Source of the DNA: an uncultured bacterium
Lineage (GTDB): Bacteria; Bacteroidota; Bacteroidia; Bacteroidales; Bacteroidaceae
DNA: 64,000 bases
Assembly: GCA_945829425.1 (NCBI GenBank)
Contig: CALZUQ010000005.1
Coordinates: 18,958 to 82,957 of the forward strand
Direction: 5' to 3'
Shown here in pieces: positions 6,101 through 28,790 of the stretch. The notes beneath the pieces are model-generated. The model worked only from the letters and a program-made list of their open reading frames with translations. It was not told the DNA's origin and made no database searches. The position numbers and the translations under genes are program-made. The stretch's first letter is position 1. The number at the start of each line of letters is the position of its first letter.

Positions 6101-6914
6101 GAGCGTATTCGAGGTTGCTCTTCTCAACGAGCGCTTCAATCTGCGTTGCGTTGTGTGTAAGGTCGTAGTTGCTTTCCTGCCTATGATACAAATCCGTAGA
6201 GTCTGCGTATCTCATAGCCATATCCCAACGGTGTGTGGTGCGATATATGCTTGAGATGCTTGACACACGCTGTATCTTATTCTTGATTTTATTCAGCACG
6301 ATAACGGCAGAGTCTATGTCGTTTAGGAAGGCATGATGAAACGACTCCGCCCTATTATACATGACATTATGCTTTGCGATATTCTCTGCGGTAGCATAAC
6401 GCTTGTAGTTCTCACGGGCATGCAGATATGTCTTGTACAGTCCTCTACGTCCGGAATAGTCTGCAAGGCATATATACGCCTCAAAGATGTCTTCGTCAGA
6501 CTTTGCCCTGTCGACAGCCTCGTTGACATAGCTGAATCCGGAGACCCTTGACGGGTCGTATTCATACAGCGAGCGGTAAAGAAGTACAAAAAGATGTGAT
6601 ATGCTGTTTCTTACAGGCAGTCCCTTGTCTATCTCAATGGCTTTCAATGCATATTCCTTCGCACTCTCATAGTCTCCGCATTTCACACATTGCTCGCAGA
6701 GCAGGCTATAACTGGCAAACAGTTCATCGGGATTGTTTGTCCGCAAGGCTTTGTTATATACGTCAAGTATAAGAAGCATTGAGGAATCTTTCGTGAGAGA
6801 GCGGTCAAAATACCTTCTGTTGCTCACCGTATCGCTACGGCTCTCTGCACCTTGCGGAATGATGCACAAGGTGAGAAGCATTGCTGCCAGAAAGATATAA
6901 GACAAGTTTTTCAT
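3111..6914 (-). CDS. Fused double sensor histidine kinase with TPR-like domains
   Basis: 1267 residues in two similar halves. Half 1: signal peptide (1-25), helical TPR-like sensor, coiled coil (about 280-350), membrane helix (354-378), then a HisKA-like dimerisation helix in which NMSEEMQIPL replaces NMSHEIRTPL, so Glu419 stands where the phosphorylated His should be. No ATPase domain follows. Half 2: hydrophobic segment 497-514 that still looks like a signal peptide (LLLSSVSYA), a second TPR-like sensor, coiled coil (890-970), membrane helix (973-996), a normal HisKA (NMSHEIRTPLN, His1037) and a HATPase domain (N box NYLTNAIKH, DTGTG, GTGLGLSI). The topology is self-consistent with two periplasmic sensors. 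It looks like a fusion of two neighbouring kinase genes. No response regulator is adjacent. The cognate signal is unknown. Confidence 0.85.
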   Translation of the reverse strand: MKNLSYIFLAAMLLTLCIIPQGAESRSDTVSNRRYFDRSLTKDSSMLLILDVYNKALRTNNPDELFASYSLLCEQCVKCGDYESAKEYALKAIEIDKGLPVRNSISHLFVLLYRSLYEYDPSRVSGFSYVNEAVDRAKSDEDIFEAYICLADYSGRRGLYKTYLHARENYKRYATAENIAKHNVMYNRAESFHHAFLNDIDSAVIVLNKIKNKIQRVSSISSIYRTTHRWDMAMRYADSTDLYHRQESNYDLTHNATQIEALVEKSNLEYARYTENYEIALAQAEIRKSMLLREQLLLESERAENQAKHLEQKSRERMYAMRLDSARVKQQNIEISHREVENGIKAMEEERMQITIGIIILSVVCVVLGMVALFMWLWARSGNRMTANMRALNARQEKLREEAVNASKGRDSFIKNMSEEMQIPLRQVTEYSRILADPNTTLTDDERMEYGVLVQEKSQKIIEHINSILNPDEYVTDEDRESEEVRIEAARKKYQAMMTVVFLFLLLSSVSYANRSALSTFFSKSTVTKETISVHEDRKGEKKKTNEADSFVLGLAEELAVVDKPLKRYVHDVQMEAYMVNYQPKMLQSIINKNVKKAVAAKDTLGHCLLLCIQMRSYKLHGTLQEFHIAEDALKTEAKKYGINRFYYYAYKEEIERYLRDKDFFHALRILDFLDKEKVKGNKTAEFYEYFSRMMISRERDEPSGVTQWAEKVLELNKELKIKQDYSQVFIEIFRSTKNAVYSQYGDSLLNMALKTANNDYARLVAYLEKAFRAGTNQDSLLYYSCMAQADSLKKMIPVYIPREYIARAYHWVFQGDIAKALKVMTLEENRITRYRLQLALARRFKRYHSALMIRDSLVVARAEETSRVMRTDLLALRQMYGTDSLAKSLAHARSVAIQLEEQQNQIALQEQKLLLEKEQRKLMLRKAQMEDFSRQRDLQLQKAELESQRIALNTQAARALADKVEAEKRRLMLYVVGVIIAVCTIAGAIFMLYAWRLRNQRQYKKLAQKNKDISLARAEAITATERKDLFIQNMSHEIRTPLNAIAGFAQLLALPEDTFTVEERERFAQHVAHNSNLLSMLIDDIVNMGNLERGTYTIEYKNTKLSDMTLVAMGTVEYRVPAGVKMIYKSAVPDDFMLYTDGRRMVQVLINYLTNAIKHTVEGSITLSVRHTTINNIPMLRFTVADTGTGVPPEQRDRIFMRFVKLEKFVQGTGLGLSICRIIAEKMNGRCYLDIRYPKDTPGINHGARFVFEIPVLEPREGVTIE

Positions 6915-7043: not shown

Positions 7044-7691
7044 TTACCTTTTTATATATTGTTTTTGCACCTCTCCGTCATATGTAGGTATTGTCACGTC
7101 TACCGTATCTCCGGCATTGATGTCTTCTGCCGGAACAGAGAAGTACACCCTTACGGAATAATATTCCGGCACCCCATTACGCTCGTGCAGCATTCGGTAG
7201 CAGTACCTCTTTCCTGTCGGCGATGTCTTCACTGTATCGCAAAGCATTGCTATGTTATGGCTGCCGTTATCTTCCGGTGTTCCCGTCTTTATGTCTACTG
7301 TGAGGTTCAGGTATTTTCCGTTCTTGGCATACCATCCACTGACAAAAGTCAGAGGGTCGTCAGCTTTCGGAACGTTCTTCATCTCCTGCCTTGTCTTTGG
7401 TCTCAGCAGCAGCACCTGTTCTGCTGCAACAGGCACGATGTTCACTCCCTCACGCCGGAAGTAGAGCAACGCCCTGTATATGGTGTCAGCCTTCTCCGCC
7501 CACGCTATCGTTGCCGGCTGTATGAAAGACAGGTTTTCGTTCTTGTCTGTTACGACATACGTTATTATCCCTCCGCTCCTTGTCGGCATAGTACACATCT
7601 CGGCTTCCATTCCCGAGATGTTCGCCTCGTCATGTGAGCATGAAGTGAAGAGGACAGCGAATGTCGTAATAAATAAAAAGACATGTCTCAT
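7044..7691 (-). CDS. Lipoprotein, possibly NigD-like
   Basis: 215 residues starting MRHVFLFITTFAVLFTSC, a lipoprotein signal with lipobox FTSC, so it should be anchored in the outer or inner membrane facing the periplasm. The body is beta-rich. The pattern DPLTFVSGWYAKNGKYLNL is similar in style to DPVEIVNSWETVAEDGYMNI of the NigD-like protein at 15.8 kb, so a NigD-type C-terminal sandwich is possible but not proven. Its start overlaps the stop of the upstream acyltransferase gene by 4 bases, which suggests translational coupling as the last gene of the envelope operon. Confidence 0.75.
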   Translation of the reverse strand: MRHVFLFITTFAVLFTSCSHDEANISGMEAEMCTMPTRSGGIITYVVTDKNENLSFIQPATIAWAEKADTIYRALLYFRREGVNIVPVAAEQVLLLRPKTRQEMKNVPKADDPLTFVSGWYAKNGKYLNLTVDIKTGTPEDNGSHNIAMLCDTVKTSPTGKRYCYRMLHERNGVPEYYSVRVYFSVPAEDINAGDTVDVTIPTYDGEVQKQYIKR

Positions 7692-8818
7692 ACTGCGAGT
7701 TTATTTTTTGCAGGGTTGGCATACATGGATATGATACGCTCACGGAGATAAGCCACATCCTTGTTCGGTATGTCTATCTTTGCTATCTGCTTCTGTATAT
7801 AATCCTCAAAACGTTTTTCGTCGGCAGGCGTATATTCCTTCTGATGCTCTCTGTTGCCGTTGAGGATGTCAAGAGCAATATAGTTGCAGGGGAAGAGGCG
7901 GTATCCGCGGTGTATCTCCACGTCCATTCTTCTCGCTACCTCGGCAAAGTATTCACCCTTCGGCATGCCTTTCAGTTCTCCGAGCCATGTGTTTATACAC
8001 GGTGCACACTCATAATGTATGCGTCCTTTGTATCCCATGATGCCTGTCTTCATATTCTCCAGGTCGTCCTGCTTTGTCTTACGGTACGACGGATTGTCAC
8101 GTTTCAGCTGAAACTCCTTAGCTTTCAAGAAGTCACACGGGTCGTATTCGTAAGATATCGACAACGGCACGATATTAAGCTCACTAAGGTCTCCGCCGTA
8201 GCTCAGCATCTTCAGCACAGACTCCTGAGTGCGGTCGTTAGAGTCCTTCGCCCTTCCCTCACGCTGTGCAATCCATATATTCTCCCCTTTCTCTGTCACG
8301 GCATGATGAATATACCTCGACATAAGCATAGAACTCTCAAGGAGTTGCCTCGGTGAGAGTCCACGTTTTACGGTAAACGCCTTGTTCAGCTTTACGAGAG
8401 TCCTTATCCACGGATATATGAGCAGGTTATCGCCTATGGCAATCTCCACGGTATTGTCATAGCCTGACTCCACGAGCTTTACGTCGAGAATGGCAGCGTC
8501 GAGAACGATGTCCCTATGGTTGCTGACATACGTATGACGCGGAGCCTTGTCGGGCAGAGGATGCCCGGCGAAGGTACATCCGTCGGAGCATTTTCTCAGT
8601 ACGTAGTTCACGACGTGTTTCATATACCTCTTCTGGAAATCGAGAGGTGTATTGACGCCGATGAACATTGTCTTTACAATAAACCGTATCAATCCCTTCG
8701 GCAGGGGCACCATGCCTCTGAGCATGGTCATAAACTGCCTGTCGGCAAGCAGTGCCTCGACAGCCGGCTTCACCTCACCGGGCCCATAAGGCCTTATCTC
8801 ATCATAGTTCTCGTTCAT
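7688..8818 (-). CDS. Putative glycerolipid acyltransferase (PlsC-like)
   Basis: 376 residues with the acyltransferase signature NHRDIVLD (HxxxxD family, NHxxxxD) near residue 98 and a second block QREGRAKDSND matching the EGxR-type substrate-binding motif. Such proteins transfer acyl chains to lysophospholipids or related lipids at the inner membrane. It is longer than E. coli PlsC and belongs to the long Bacteroidota form; the exact acceptor cannot be told from sequence. It overlaps the lipoprotein gene by 4 bases and follows ddl after about 110 bases, so all are probably one operon. Confidence 0.75.
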   Translation of the reverse strand: MNENYDEIRPYGPGEVKPAVEALLADRQFMTMLRGMVPLPKGLIRFIVKTMFIGVNTPLDFQKRYMKHVVNYVLRKCSDGCTFAGHPLPDKAPRHTYVSNHRDIVLDAAILDVKLVESGYDNTVEIAIGDNLLIYPWIRTLVKLNKAFTVKRGLSPRQLLESSMLMSRYIHHAVTEKGENIWIAQREGRAKDSNDRTQESVLKMLSYGGDLSELNIVPLSISYEYDPCDFLKAKEFQLKRDNPSYRKTKQDDLENMKTGIMGYKGRIHYECAPCINTWLGELKGMPKGEYFAEVARRMDVEIHRGYRLFPCNYIALDILNGNREHQKEYTPADEKRFEDYIQKQIAKIDIPNKDVAYLRERIISMYANPAKNKLAV

Positions 8819-15131: not shown

Positions 15132-15199
15132 ACATGCAGAGACAAAACCGTCACACCGGCAAAGGCTTGCCGTAAGGAGAGCGTAAGGCAAGCTATGAC

Positions 15200-15291
15200 A
15201 AACTGCAGGCATAACTTATGACAAGATGCAGGCATAACTTATGACAAGCTGCAGGCATAACTTATGACAAGATGCAGGCATAACTTATGAC
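15200..15291. repeat. 23-bp tandem array, four units
   Basis: Four units of 23 bases (15200-15222, 15223-15245, 15246-15268, 15269-15291), consensus AARMTGCAGGCATAACTTATGAC, each containing the palindrome CATAA-C-TTATG. Differences are limited to one or two positions per unit. Confidence 0.95.
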
Positions 15292-15768
15292 ATTCAATTC
15301 CATAAGTACAATATATCAGACTTCGGCTGCAAATTTAGGCATTTATTTTCATATTTGCAAGAAAAAGTCGATTAAATCATACTTTTTAGATTGAATAAAT
15401 GATTTCATGGAGTGCTACATATTAAAATATGAGCAATACTTTCCTATTAGATTCTGCAATGTCAGGTCGCCTCTGTTAAATCTTTCGGCATCGAGGGGGA
15501 GAATGCGCTCACGCACCTTTGTCTTGCCCTTGAATAGGGCGGTGAGATTATAGGCTTGGTTCTCATTCACAATCTTGATGTCAGAGACATCTTAATCACT
15601 TCTATAAGATAAAAGGTTACGAAATCCCCTGAAAGCAAATTAACATCTTTTATGTCTGACACGTGCAATATTTTTACCTCACCGTTGTTTTATGGGTAAA
15701 GAAGAGAGAAAACGGCACAAAAGCCGTGAGGTAAAAACAAAGGCAACAATAAAAAACATAAAAAGGAC
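15292..15768. other. AT-rich spacer with a decayed gene
   Basis: Between the tandem array and the NigD-like gene there is no intact gene on either strand. The central part holds the pseudogene described separately; the rest is AT-rich without a clear TAnnTTTG promoter for the NigD-like gene. Confidence 0.5.
15415..15689 (-). pseudogene. Frameshifted remnant of an unknown gene
   Basis: On the minus strand a frame opens after a TAA at 15690 and reads NNGEVKILHVSDIKDVNLLSG, and continues to about 15594; the sequence then resumes in another frame (DVSDIKIVNENQAYNLTAL, then GKTKVRERILPLDAERFNRG) and ends at TAG 15415. The composition is protein-like, with balanced codons, and no ATG is suitably placed. 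I read it as the C-terminal part of a gene broken by a frameshift and lacking its beginning. The family is not recognised. Confidence 0.45.
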
Positions 15769-16479
15769 ATGAAAAGACTCAAGACACTTATGATGCTGCT
15801 CGTAGCAGCACTGACAACAGTAACTCTTTACTCTTGCGACATCGACGATGACAACTGTCCGTCGTTCAGCCTTGCCACCGTAACCCTACGCCCTGCCACA
15901 GAAGGCAGAAACTGGTGCATGCAGCTCGACGACTCCACGACGCTTCACGCCGTAAACATCGCCTCACACCCTTACAACGACAAGGAGCAGAGAGCATACA
16001 TACGTTTCAACGACCCGAAGCCGATACCGGAGTCAAGCCAAAGAGAGTACACGGTGAATGTCCTCACCATTGACACCATATTGACGAAGCCTATGGCTCC
16101 GCTGCTTAAGAGCGCAGAAGAGAATGTTGAGGAGGACATCAACGCCAAGGAATACGGCTCAGACCCTGTAGAGATTGTCAACAGCTGGGAGACAGTAGCC
16201 GAAGACGGATATATGAACATACGCTTCCGCACTCGCTTCGGAGGAGGGAAACACCGCGTGACACTCGTACACCGCACCGACGCCTCCGAGCCATACGTAG
16301 TAGAGTTCTTCCATGACGCCAACGGCGACCTCGACGGTGTGGTGAACGACGGAATAGTGGCGTTCCGCCTCGACGAAGCGTTCAACGCCGGCGACAAAGC
16401 GATAGAGATAACGCTGAAATGGAACTCTTACTCCGGCGAGAAGACAGCGAAATTCAAATACCTCCCACGAAAGGATTGA
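15769..16479 (+). CDS. NigD-like lipoprotein
   Basis: 236 residues, beginning MKRLKTLMMLLVAALTTVTLYSC with lipobox LYSC. The pattern matches the NigD-like family: an N-terminal OB-type domain (SFSLATVTLRPATEGRNWCM) and a C-terminal beta sandwich (DPVEIVNSWETVAEDGYMNI; RVTLVHRTDASEPYVVEFF). NigD-like proteins are common Bacteroidota surface or periplasmic lipoproteins of unclear biochemical role. It is followed after 75 bases by an ECF sigma factor and a dual-membrane anti-sigma gene on the same strand, so it is likely part of, or a target of, that circuit. Confidence 0.85.
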   Translation: MKRLKTLMMLLVAALTTVTLYSCDIDDDNCPSFSLATVTLRPATEGRNWCMQLDDSTTLHAVNIASHPYNDKEQRAYIRFNDPKPIPESSQREYTVNVLTIDTILTKPMAPLLKSAEENVEEDINAKEYGSDPVEIVNSWETVAEDGYMNIRFRTRFGGGKHRVTLVHRTDASEPYVVEFFHDANGDLDGVVNDGIVAFRLDEAFNAGDKAIEITLKWNSYSGEKTAKFKYLPRKD

Positions 16480-16553
16480 TGCGCTACGGTGGGGACAACA
16501 GCACCCACATAAAGCGCGAGAGCCTTACAATGCCAGTAACATCTTAACACACA

Positions 16554-17147
16554 GTGAACAGCAAGAAGACATACGTCAGTGAACAGGACATAGCAGAAGG
16601 ACTTCGCAAGGGTGACAACCATGCGATGAGGGAGTTTTATGCCTCCTTCGGCGGTATGCTCACTGGCGTATGTTGCAGATACCTCGCTGACGACGATGAT
16701 GTGAAAGACATACTACAGGAAACCTTAATAAGCATCATAAAGAATATCCATTCCTTTGAATATCAGGGGAAAGGGTCGCTGAGAGCATGGGCAGTACGCA
16801 TAACGGTAAACCACGCTCTCAGCTTTTTGCGTAAGAAACAGCGCGACACGGCACTCTTCGTAAACGCTGACAGCGACGTCGCCGACGAGGAGACACCACC
16901 CGACATCGAGGATATTCCGGCAGACACGATAACCGAGATGATACGCCAACTGCCCGACGGCTACCGCATGGTGTTCAACCTTTACGTCATAGAGGGGAAG
17001 AGCCACAAAGAGATAGCACAGACGCTGGGCATAAAGGAGGTGACATCAGCGTCGCAGCTGCACAGGGCAAAAGCCATACTGACAAAGAAAATAAACGAAT
17101 ACAGGAAACAACAACGTGGGGACATCACAACACCCACCTCAAGGTAA
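16554..17147 (+). CDS. ECF-type RNA polymerase sigma factor
   Basis: 197 residues with sigma region 2 (CCRYLADDDDVKDILQETLI) and region 4 helix-turn-helix (LPDGYRMVFNLYVIEGKSHK, then EIAQTLGIKEVTSASQLHRAK). The track start is a GTG codon; no better ATG exists upstream in frame, and a second GTG (VSEQDIAEG) is possible. It would direct RNA polymerase to envelope-response promoters when released by its anti-sigma factor. The next gene starts only 5 bases after the stop, so the two are translationally linked. Organisation matches the Das/Dma sigma/anti-sigma pairs described in Bacteroides. Confidence 0.9.
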   Translation: MNSKKTYVSEQDIAEGLRKGDNHAMREFYASFGGMLTGVCCRYLADDDDVKDILQETLISIIKNIHSFEYQGKGSLRAWAVRITVNHALSFLRKKQRDTALFVNADSDVADEETPPDIEDIPADTITEMIRQLPDGYRMVFNLYVIEGKSHKEIAQTLGIKEVTSASQLHRAKAILTKKINEYRKQQRGDITTPTSR

Positions 17148-17152
17148 AGGAC

Positions 17153-18466
17153 ATGAAAGATAAATGGACAGAACAATTCCAAGCGAAAATGGCAGGGCAC
17201 GAAAGGAAAGCCCCAGAGCTGTCATGGCCTGAACTTGACAAAGCTCTCGAAGAAAACAGGGAACGAGCGGCGGAAGAAAGCCGGACAGCCTGGAAGAGAA
17301 AGGCTTGGACACTATGGATAAAACCTGGAGAACGCTCTGTATATGGACGAAGGCTTACCGTGGCGGCGACAATAGCGTTGGCCCTGATAAGCGGCACGCT
17401 GCTCTTCTTCGACAGGCTGTCACCTGAACAGCAGCAACTCGCCGAAGAAGCTGTAAGACAGGCTGCCAATACACCACGCCTCACGGCACAAGGGGTAGAG
17501 GAGAACAGCACGAAGGAGAAGCAACAACAGAAGCGGAAGGAGCAGGGAGAGGAAGGAAGGTATGCAGATGCAAGACAAGAGTCACAGCCCATGGGAGAAC
17601 ACGGGTACGGTGACGACGGAAAAGCATCTTCTGCCTACGGACAACAGCCGACAGAGCGAAAGGCAAACGACGGGGAGGGTTCAACGTCAACCCAACCCCC
17701 TTCCAGCCGTGACAGCCGTACTACAAGCGGCAACTCCTCACGCCTTGACATGATTTTCAATGAAGGCGGAAAGCGAGGCAGGCAGAATAACAGCCTTGTG
17801 GCAGGACTCTATATGAACGCCATGGCGACAGGCTCACAGAACACAGGCGGCATTATGGCGCAAAGCTCGCCAATGCTTGCAGAGCCTTACGGTCCTGTGA
17901 CAGACGACTTTCGCTTCGGGACGTTAGACATCGTGGCGAACAGCAACCCACGGGAAATACGTTACGACCACGACTACCCTATCAAGGCAGGACTGTCCGT
18001 AGGTTACGCCTTCGGCGGGAAATGGAGCGTGACGACGGGAGTGACCTACAGCTTCCTCCGCTCTACGCTGAAATATTCAGAAGGGAAGAGCCACGGCGAG
18101 GGGACACAGAAGCTCCACTACCTTGGCATCCCGGTATCGCTGAACTATGACATCGTAAAGAACAGGAGGCTTACGCTCTACCTCTCTGGCGGAGGAGAGA
18201 TGCAGAAACTCCTCGACGGCAAGATGACCATAAGGAAGGAAGGCACAGGCTCAGAAACAATTAACGAGGGCGTAAGCGAGAACTCCCTGCAATGGTCGCT
18301 GCACGCTGCTCTCGGCGCACAGTATATCCTCGGCAACGGTATAGGGATATACGTAGAACCCGGAGCGGAATACCATTTCGACAACGGCAGCAGCGTCATG
18401 AACTATTATAAGAAGCACAAGACAAGCTTCAGCCTTAACCTTGGAATAAGGCTGAACATCAAGTAA
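17153..18466 (+). CDS. Dual-membrane-spanning anti-sigma factor (Dma-like) with outer-membrane beta-barrel
   Basis: 437 residues. Residues 1-60 form a charged cytoplasmic domain that should bind the sigma factor. Residues 67-86 (LTVAATIALALISGTLLFF) are one inner-membrane helix. Residues 88-208 are a long, low-complexity linker rich in Gln, Glu, Gly, Ser and Arg, long enough to cross the periplasm. Residues 213-437 read as an 8-stranded outer-membrane barrel (LSVGYAFGGKWSVTTGVTYS; LHYLGIPVSLNYDI; SFSLNLGIRLNIK) ending in a basic residue after alternating hydrophobics. There is no signal peptide, as expected if the helix is the only export signal. This is the architecture reported for Dma proteins that control vesicle formation in Bacteroides thetaiotaomicron; assignment here is by architecture and position. 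Confidence 0.82.
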   Translation: MKDKWTEQFQAKMAGHERKAPELSWPELDKALEENRERAAEESRTAWKRKAWTLWIKPGERSVYGRRLTVAATIALALISGTLLFFDRLSPEQQQLAEEAVRQAANTPRLTAQGVEENSTKEKQQQKRKEQGEEGRYADARQESQPMGEHGYGDDGKASSAYGQQPTERKANDGEGSTSTQPPSSRDSRTTSGNSSRLDMIFNEGGKRGRQNNSLVAGLYMNAMATGSQNTGGIMAQSSPMLAEPYGPVTDDFRFGTLDIVANSNPREIRYDHDYPIKAGLSVGYAFGGKWSVTTGVTYSFLRSTLKYSEGKSHGEGTQKLHYLGIPVSLNYDIVKNRRLTLYLSGGGEMQKLLDGKMTIRKEGTGSETINEGVSENSLQWSLHAALGAQYILGNGIGIYVEPGAEYHFDNGSSVMNYYKKHKTSFSLNLGIRLNIK

Positions 18467-18593: not shown

Positions 18594-18649
18594 AAGCTTA
18601 GAGAAGGAAGCTTAGAGCTTAGAGAAGGAAGCTTAGAGCTTAGAGAAGG
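18594..18649. repeat. 21-bp tandem array
   Basis: Two perfect 21-base units (18608-18628 and 18629-18649, AAGCTTAGAGCTTAGAGAAGG) preceded by a shortened copy (18594-18607). Each unit itself contains a 7-base internal repeat GCTTAGA. Confidence 0.9.
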
Positions 18650-28685: not shown

Positions 28686-28790
28686 GATATGAATACAGAT
28701 TTCGTGATAATTCTACAGATTACGTGATGTGAATAACATGTAAAGCAATGAGAAAGACATGCTGAGTGATGCAAGAAACAGCCACAGCCC

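Follow-up and report, generated by a model that had tools for sequence, protein, structure and literature searches.

In Phocaeicola vulgatus, the loci M0N98_03760-62 are reported to encode a barrel-bearing anti-sigma factor (Reo), its sigma factor (EcfO) and a nigD gene (PMC9308784, PMC13114119). Reo spans the inner and outer membranes, and NigD genes are induced when it is inactivated; in mice, NigD is produced only if EcfO is present (PMC9308784, PMC13114119). Without the anti-sigma factor, a small regulon is induced and the O-antigen becomes longer; toxins also induce the regulon (PMC9308784, PMC13114119). The P. vulgatus pair was described through toxin and outer-membrane stress, while the pair of B. 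fragilis was described through oxidative stress (PMC13114119, PMC9308784).

Das1 and Das2 of B. thetaiotaomicron are held in check by Dma1 and Dma2, whose loss raises vesicle production. NigD1 is needed for the vesicle effect of Dma1, while Dma2 works without raising nigD1. Vesicle control has been established only for Dma1 and Dma2 of this species (PMC13088901). In the literature that we searched, we found no study of an EcfO-Reo/Dma-type system in Prevotella-type bacteria.

Gene content and relation to described systems

The locus analyzed here is located at 15769-18466 of a 64-kb stretch of DNA, hereafter the window, and consists, according to the ORF list, of three genes on the + strand that encode a NigD lipoprotein, an ECF sigma factor and a 437-residue protein. 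A preliminary description had read them as a cluster of a NigD-like protein, an ECF sigma factor and a dual-membrane anti-sigma factor; the ORFs were recovered at these positions, and their products matched the corresponding families. Since only 74 bases separate the end of nigD from the listed sigma start, and 5 bases separate the sigma stop codon from the dma start, the three genes are likely to form a single operon. We consider it highly probable that the locus is a nigD-ecfO-dma (reo) operon of the Prevotella type and belongs to the family known both as Das/Dma and as EcfO/Reo, sensing mechanism included. It would thus be a typical and well-conserved example of a stress switch described recently in Bacteroidota.

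The first gene, nigD (15769..16479, +), encodes a 236-aa lipoprotein that matches the NCBIfam family NF051862 ("NigD1/NigD2 family lipoprotein") with 175.9 bits against a cut-off of 60, which places it in this family. The product contains the NigD_N and NigD_C domains (PF17415, PF12667) and a lipoprotein-type signal at its N-terminus (TVTLYSC), and its relatives of solved structure in the PDB are 3k0y and 3qwn. A second, more distant NigD-family gene (about 90 bits for NF051862) is located at 7044-7691 (-), directly behind an acyltransferase-like gene (7688-8818, -).

The second gene (16554..17147, +) encodes an EcfO/Das1-like ECF sigma factor of 197 aa, with a GTG start as listed, which is putative. 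Its family matches are at the general ECF level (Sigma70_r2, Sigma70_r4_2), its structural relatives are SigH, SigW and SigE, and it shares 35-50% identity with the sigma neighbours of other Dma genes. The third gene (17153..18466, +) encodes the Dma/Reo-like dual-membrane anti-sigma protein. Two short tandem arrays flank the operon, one at 15194-15292 (23-base unit, 4.3 copies) and the other at 18595-18649 (21-base unit, 2.6 copies). No Rfam RNA family was found between 14 and 20 kb of the window.

Compared by description, the locus matches EcfO-Reo of P. vulgatus (M0N98_03760-03762) in gene content: both have a sigma factor and an anti-sigma factor with an inner-membrane helix and a C-terminal outer-membrane barrel. 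In P. vulgatus, a nigD gene lies beside the pair, as judged by locus tag, and belongs to the regulon; the window also has an adjacent nigD. Nevertheless, the genus is different, and P. vulgatus has three nigD genes in its regulon, whereas in the window only the adjacent nigD carries the promoter element described below. Das1-Dma1 of B. thetaiotaomicron (NigD1, BT_4005), also compared by description, shares the order of anti-sigma region, helix, disordered tether and barrel, the partner ECF sigma factor and a NigD1/NigD2-family lipoprotein; for Das1-Dma1, a vesicle phenotype is known (PMC13088901). Das2-Dma2 (BT_1559-BT_1558) has the same architecture in a three-gene operon with its sigma factor, but its third gene is BT_1557 (DUF4943) instead of nigD, and the loss of Dma2 leaves nigD1 unraised (PMC13088901). 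In Dma3 (BT_2778-2779 locus), the sigma factor is fused to a barrel protein of the same barrel family (PMC13088901), whereas the sigma and anti-sigma factors of the window are separate proteins.

Architecture of the predicted dual-membrane anti-sigma protein

The preliminary description attributed to the 437-residue protein a sigma-binding region, one inner-membrane helix, a low-complexity linker and an outer-membrane barrel. An AlphaFold2 model, built with an alignment of 54 full-length sequences, reproduced this order of domains, with sigma binding being presumed. The cytoplasmic N-terminal region (residues 1-62; 17153..17338, +) is modeled with helices at 2-14 and 25-53, both with fair confidence, and residues W5 and P21 in this region are nearly invariant, each in one family alignment. 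By analogy with the named relatives, these two helices would bind the sigma factor. The inner-membrane helix (residues 63-87; 17339..17413, +), preceded by RR, was delimited from hydropathy and the model and includes the single hydrophobic segment of the protein (residues 68-86), with a hydropathy of 2.27 over residues 70-86. Classical anti-sigma factors of the RseA and RsiW type hold an ECF sigma factor by means of a helical cytoplasmic region and one membrane helix. The Dma-like protein shares these two elements with them, but RseA and RsiW have no outer-membrane barrel.

The periplasmic linker (residues 88-214; 17414..17794, +) is rich in Q, E, S, G and K and is predicted to be disordered except for a helix at 91-105, with pLDDT below 50 for most of residues 110-207. 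At roughly 0.35 nm per residue, its 127 residues would reach about 44 nm, enough to cross the periplasm. The architecture is shared by all 54 aligned proteins, in each of which one hydrophobic segment is followed by a linker; the segment starts 42-91 residues from the N-terminus, and the linker is 108-173 residues long (median 127).

The C-terminal part alone matches OMP_b-brl_2 and OMP_b-brl (PF13568/PF13505), and the model presents it as an OmpA/OmpX-like outer-membrane beta-barrel of eight main strands (residues 215-437; 17795..18463, +), with strands at 215-225 and 268-436. The pLDDT of the barrel blocks is 88-98, mostly above 90, so that the structure prediction proposed in the preliminary description yielded a barrel with high confidence. 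Based on Foldseek searches, the best PDB matches of the barrel are eight-stranded barrels of the OmpA type (OmpA, Ail, NspA and OmpX), with E-values of about 1e-7. Over the whole chain, the model has moderate confidence (mean pLDDT 72.7, pTM 0.53), owing to the disordered linker and to a relative position of the domains that the model does not fix. Of the two outcomes that would have spoken against the preliminary reading, a missing barrel and a signal-peptidase cut between helix and barrel, neither turned up, the second being judged by a heuristic motif test. The likeness to Dma noted in the preliminary description was borne out, as gene order, sigma pairing and linker agree with those published for Dma and Reo (PMC13088901, PMC9308784, PMC13114119).

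Conservation and gene order in relatives

The anti-sigma protein was matched in 43 of 60 same-genus genomes, the own genome included, although some of these matches cover only the barrel; the arrangement of the window operon was also seen in same-genus genomes. The family profile matched 31 of the 119 genomes drawn from the order. A scan of genome contigs with the 437-residue protein as a single query returned no relatives, while an alignment-based scan of public genome contigs gave 325 matches, from which we kept 80 loci, including loci of Prevotella, Hoylesella, Segatella, Alloprevotella, Muribaculum and Chryseobacterium. The sigma gene is immediately upstream of dma in 76 of the 80 loci, and nigD precedes the sigma-dma pair in about 49 of them; near many dma loci of this set, nigD was not detected. 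The order nigD-sigma-dma is widespread in Bacteroidales. The identity between the window protein and the collected family members is only about 24-34%, and the transfer of function from a single paralogue, Dma1 or Dma2, is therefore loose.

In six loci of other genera of the family (L138, L140, L142, L151, L152 and L154), nigD is divergent from the sigma-dma pair, unlike in the window and its relatives, where it is co-directional and first in the operon. We also observed natural fusions (L063:6888-8555 and L163-L168) in which a complete ECF sigma factor is followed by a membrane helix, a linker and a barrel of the same family. These fusions have no separate anti-sigma region and resemble Dma3 of B. 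thetaiotaomicron; there are probably many of them in the genus. None was found in the own genome, which has one barrel-family match only.

The predicted promoter element upstream of nigD

Based on a matrix derived from relatives, we identified an ECF-type promoter element, TGCAATATTT - N - TTTTA, at 15664..15692 (+). This predicted promoter starts about 105 bases before the nigD ATG. The window was left out of the counts for the matrix, and eight low-scoring loci were excluded by hand. The consensus of the relatives is (A/G)TGCAAG(A/T)TTT, with G also occurring at the second variable position in the alignment, and an ATTTA is located about 22 bases from the first element. About 41 of the 49 homologous operons carry the element ahead of nigD, usually 40-75 bases from the start codon. 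When words and dyads were counted without supervision in nigD upstream regions, TGCAAG and GCAA-N19-TTTA likewise came out far above the shuffled expectation. The window copy carries a T at a position that is G in 40 of 41 relatives (TGCAAT versus TGCAAG), and other genera carry the variant TGCAGTATT. According to PMC7366714, a recognition motif of B. fragilis EcfO has already been published; thus, we claim no novelty for the motif.

In the 64 kb, both strands included, the matrix ranks the site at 15664 first; a score as high was reached by 0 of 3000 random 300-base stretches. A score of 16 or more was reached by 2.3% of 299 other genes, which served as a clean control, and a pattern search in the window gave 2 matches versus 0.16 expected. 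The margin over the second-best site is small (19.7 versus 19.0), and this second site, at 28770 (+), was rejected because it lies outside a promoter position, just past the 3' end of an efflux-pump gene that runs in the opposite direction. The third site, at 6914 (+), lies over the start of a gene of the opposite strand.

The search for the motif upstream of NigD-like genes, suggested in the preliminary description, was successful for the adjacent nigD but not for the second NigD gene at 7044-7691 (-), before which there was no matching element among the top sites of the window. In other genomes, the element or TGCAGTATT was also found before several nigD genes whose flanks, over about 1.5 kb, contain no sigma-dma pair (L134, L137 and L148), as would be expected if the regulon were shared, while the upstream regions of a more distant NigD group had no element. 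Over the own genome, a loose promoter pattern gave 20 sites versus 5 for a control pattern. Most of them read TGCAAA(A/G)TTA, apparently a separate motif that is common upstream of genes in general, and were set aside. Besides the nigD site, only G000:C7 (TGCAAGATTT) closely fits the refined element in this genome; with this single further fit, a wider regulon is not established.

A 12-base perfect inverted repeat, TTTTTACCTCAC / GTGAGGTAAAAA (15671-15737), overlaps the spacer and the -10 region of the predicted nigD promoter as well as the early leader. The window contains no second pair of this kind (0 expected by shuffling), the genome has no further copy of the exact half-site, and the repeat did not appear in five relatives. 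It is possibly an operator or a leader hairpin.

Proposed mechanism and alternative explanations

In the unstressed cell, the Dma-like protein would span the envelope, with its N-terminal helices keeping the cytoplasmic ECF sigma factor bound and silent, a single helix anchoring the protein in the inner membrane, the flexible linker of about 127 residues crossing the periplasm and the eight-stranded barrel sitting in the outer membrane. Outer-membrane damage, or a barrel that is not assembled or retained there, may change or release the hold on the sigma factor; the inducing stress is taken here from the named relatives. The freed sigma factor would then transcribe from 15664-15692, resulting in more nigD, more of the sigma factor itself and more of its own inhibitor. 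NigD, whose function is likewise read from the relatives, would be exported as a surface lipoprotein and, as the main local output, may affect the outer surface, for example through the shedding of vesicles. The preliminary description proposed that a signal at the cell surface acts directly on the sigma factor, a reasonable hypothesis that is also put forward in the literature.

Vesicle control in the source organism may be expected by homology only, and there is a real, if tentative, possibility that the core mechanism is right but that the pair controls another output, such as toxin or oxygen resistance or host-glycan gene sets. Related pairs have been described through oxygen exposure (EcfO of B. 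fragilis), toxin-induced lengthening of the O-antigen (P. vulgatus) and PUL expression (Dma2), which is consistent with such an output (PMC13114119, PMC9308784, PMC13088901); nevertheless, NigD1, a relative of the NigD of the window, is the gene tied to vesicles in B. thetaiotaomicron (PMC13088901).

Regarding NigD, the preliminary description considered it a likely partner or target of the system. Since a conserved sigma-type promoter lies ahead of nigD, which leads the operon, NigD is most likely the first output of the switch and not a sensing partner, as in P. vulgatus, whose NigD production depends on EcfO; the analysis gave no sign of a physical partnership. It is unlikely that NigD is a physical partner of the barrel, as a ligand or plug, and shares in sensing beyond being an output. 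As a lipoprotein, NigD could reach the outer membrane, and no other gene is linked to the sigma-dma pair as often as nigD, which is co-directional in Prevotella types and divergent but adjacent in several other genera. However, shared regulation explains this adjacency equally well, the promoter element is also present on nigD genes that do not lie beside the pair, no NigD was detectable near many dma loci, and the three nigD genes of P. vulgatus are simply members of the regulon (PMC13114119). We regard as very unlikely the specific case in which NigD is exposed at the surface and either reports to the barrel sensor or resets it; if this were true, the Prevotella-type nigD-sigma-dma operon would be a feedback loop across both membranes.

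Other ECF anti-sigma factors commonly undergo regulated proteolysis, and a loose AXA-like (small-X-small) match is present near the helix in 14 of the 54 family members, about a quarter. Nevertheless, we find it hardly credible that the 437-residue protein is cut after the helix during normal growth into a separate barrel and an ordinary single-membrane anti-sigma factor, given that a heuristic motif test found no signal-peptidase I motif or small-X-small site after its helix, that the matches in the family are at unconserved positions, that the pre-helix region comprises about 62 residues and is partly folded, that transposon insertions in the P. vulgatus gene activate the regulon (PMC9308784), and that the B. 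thetaiotaomicron Dma proteins are described as reaching from the outer membrane into the cytosol (PMC13088901).

The locus confirms earlier work and adds to it, without changing it. The conserved element, which marks the operon and some nigD genes elsewhere, provides a simple regulon prediction in Prevotella-type bacteria, and the locus bears on how one polypeptide relays a change in the outer membrane to a sigma factor in the cytoplasm.
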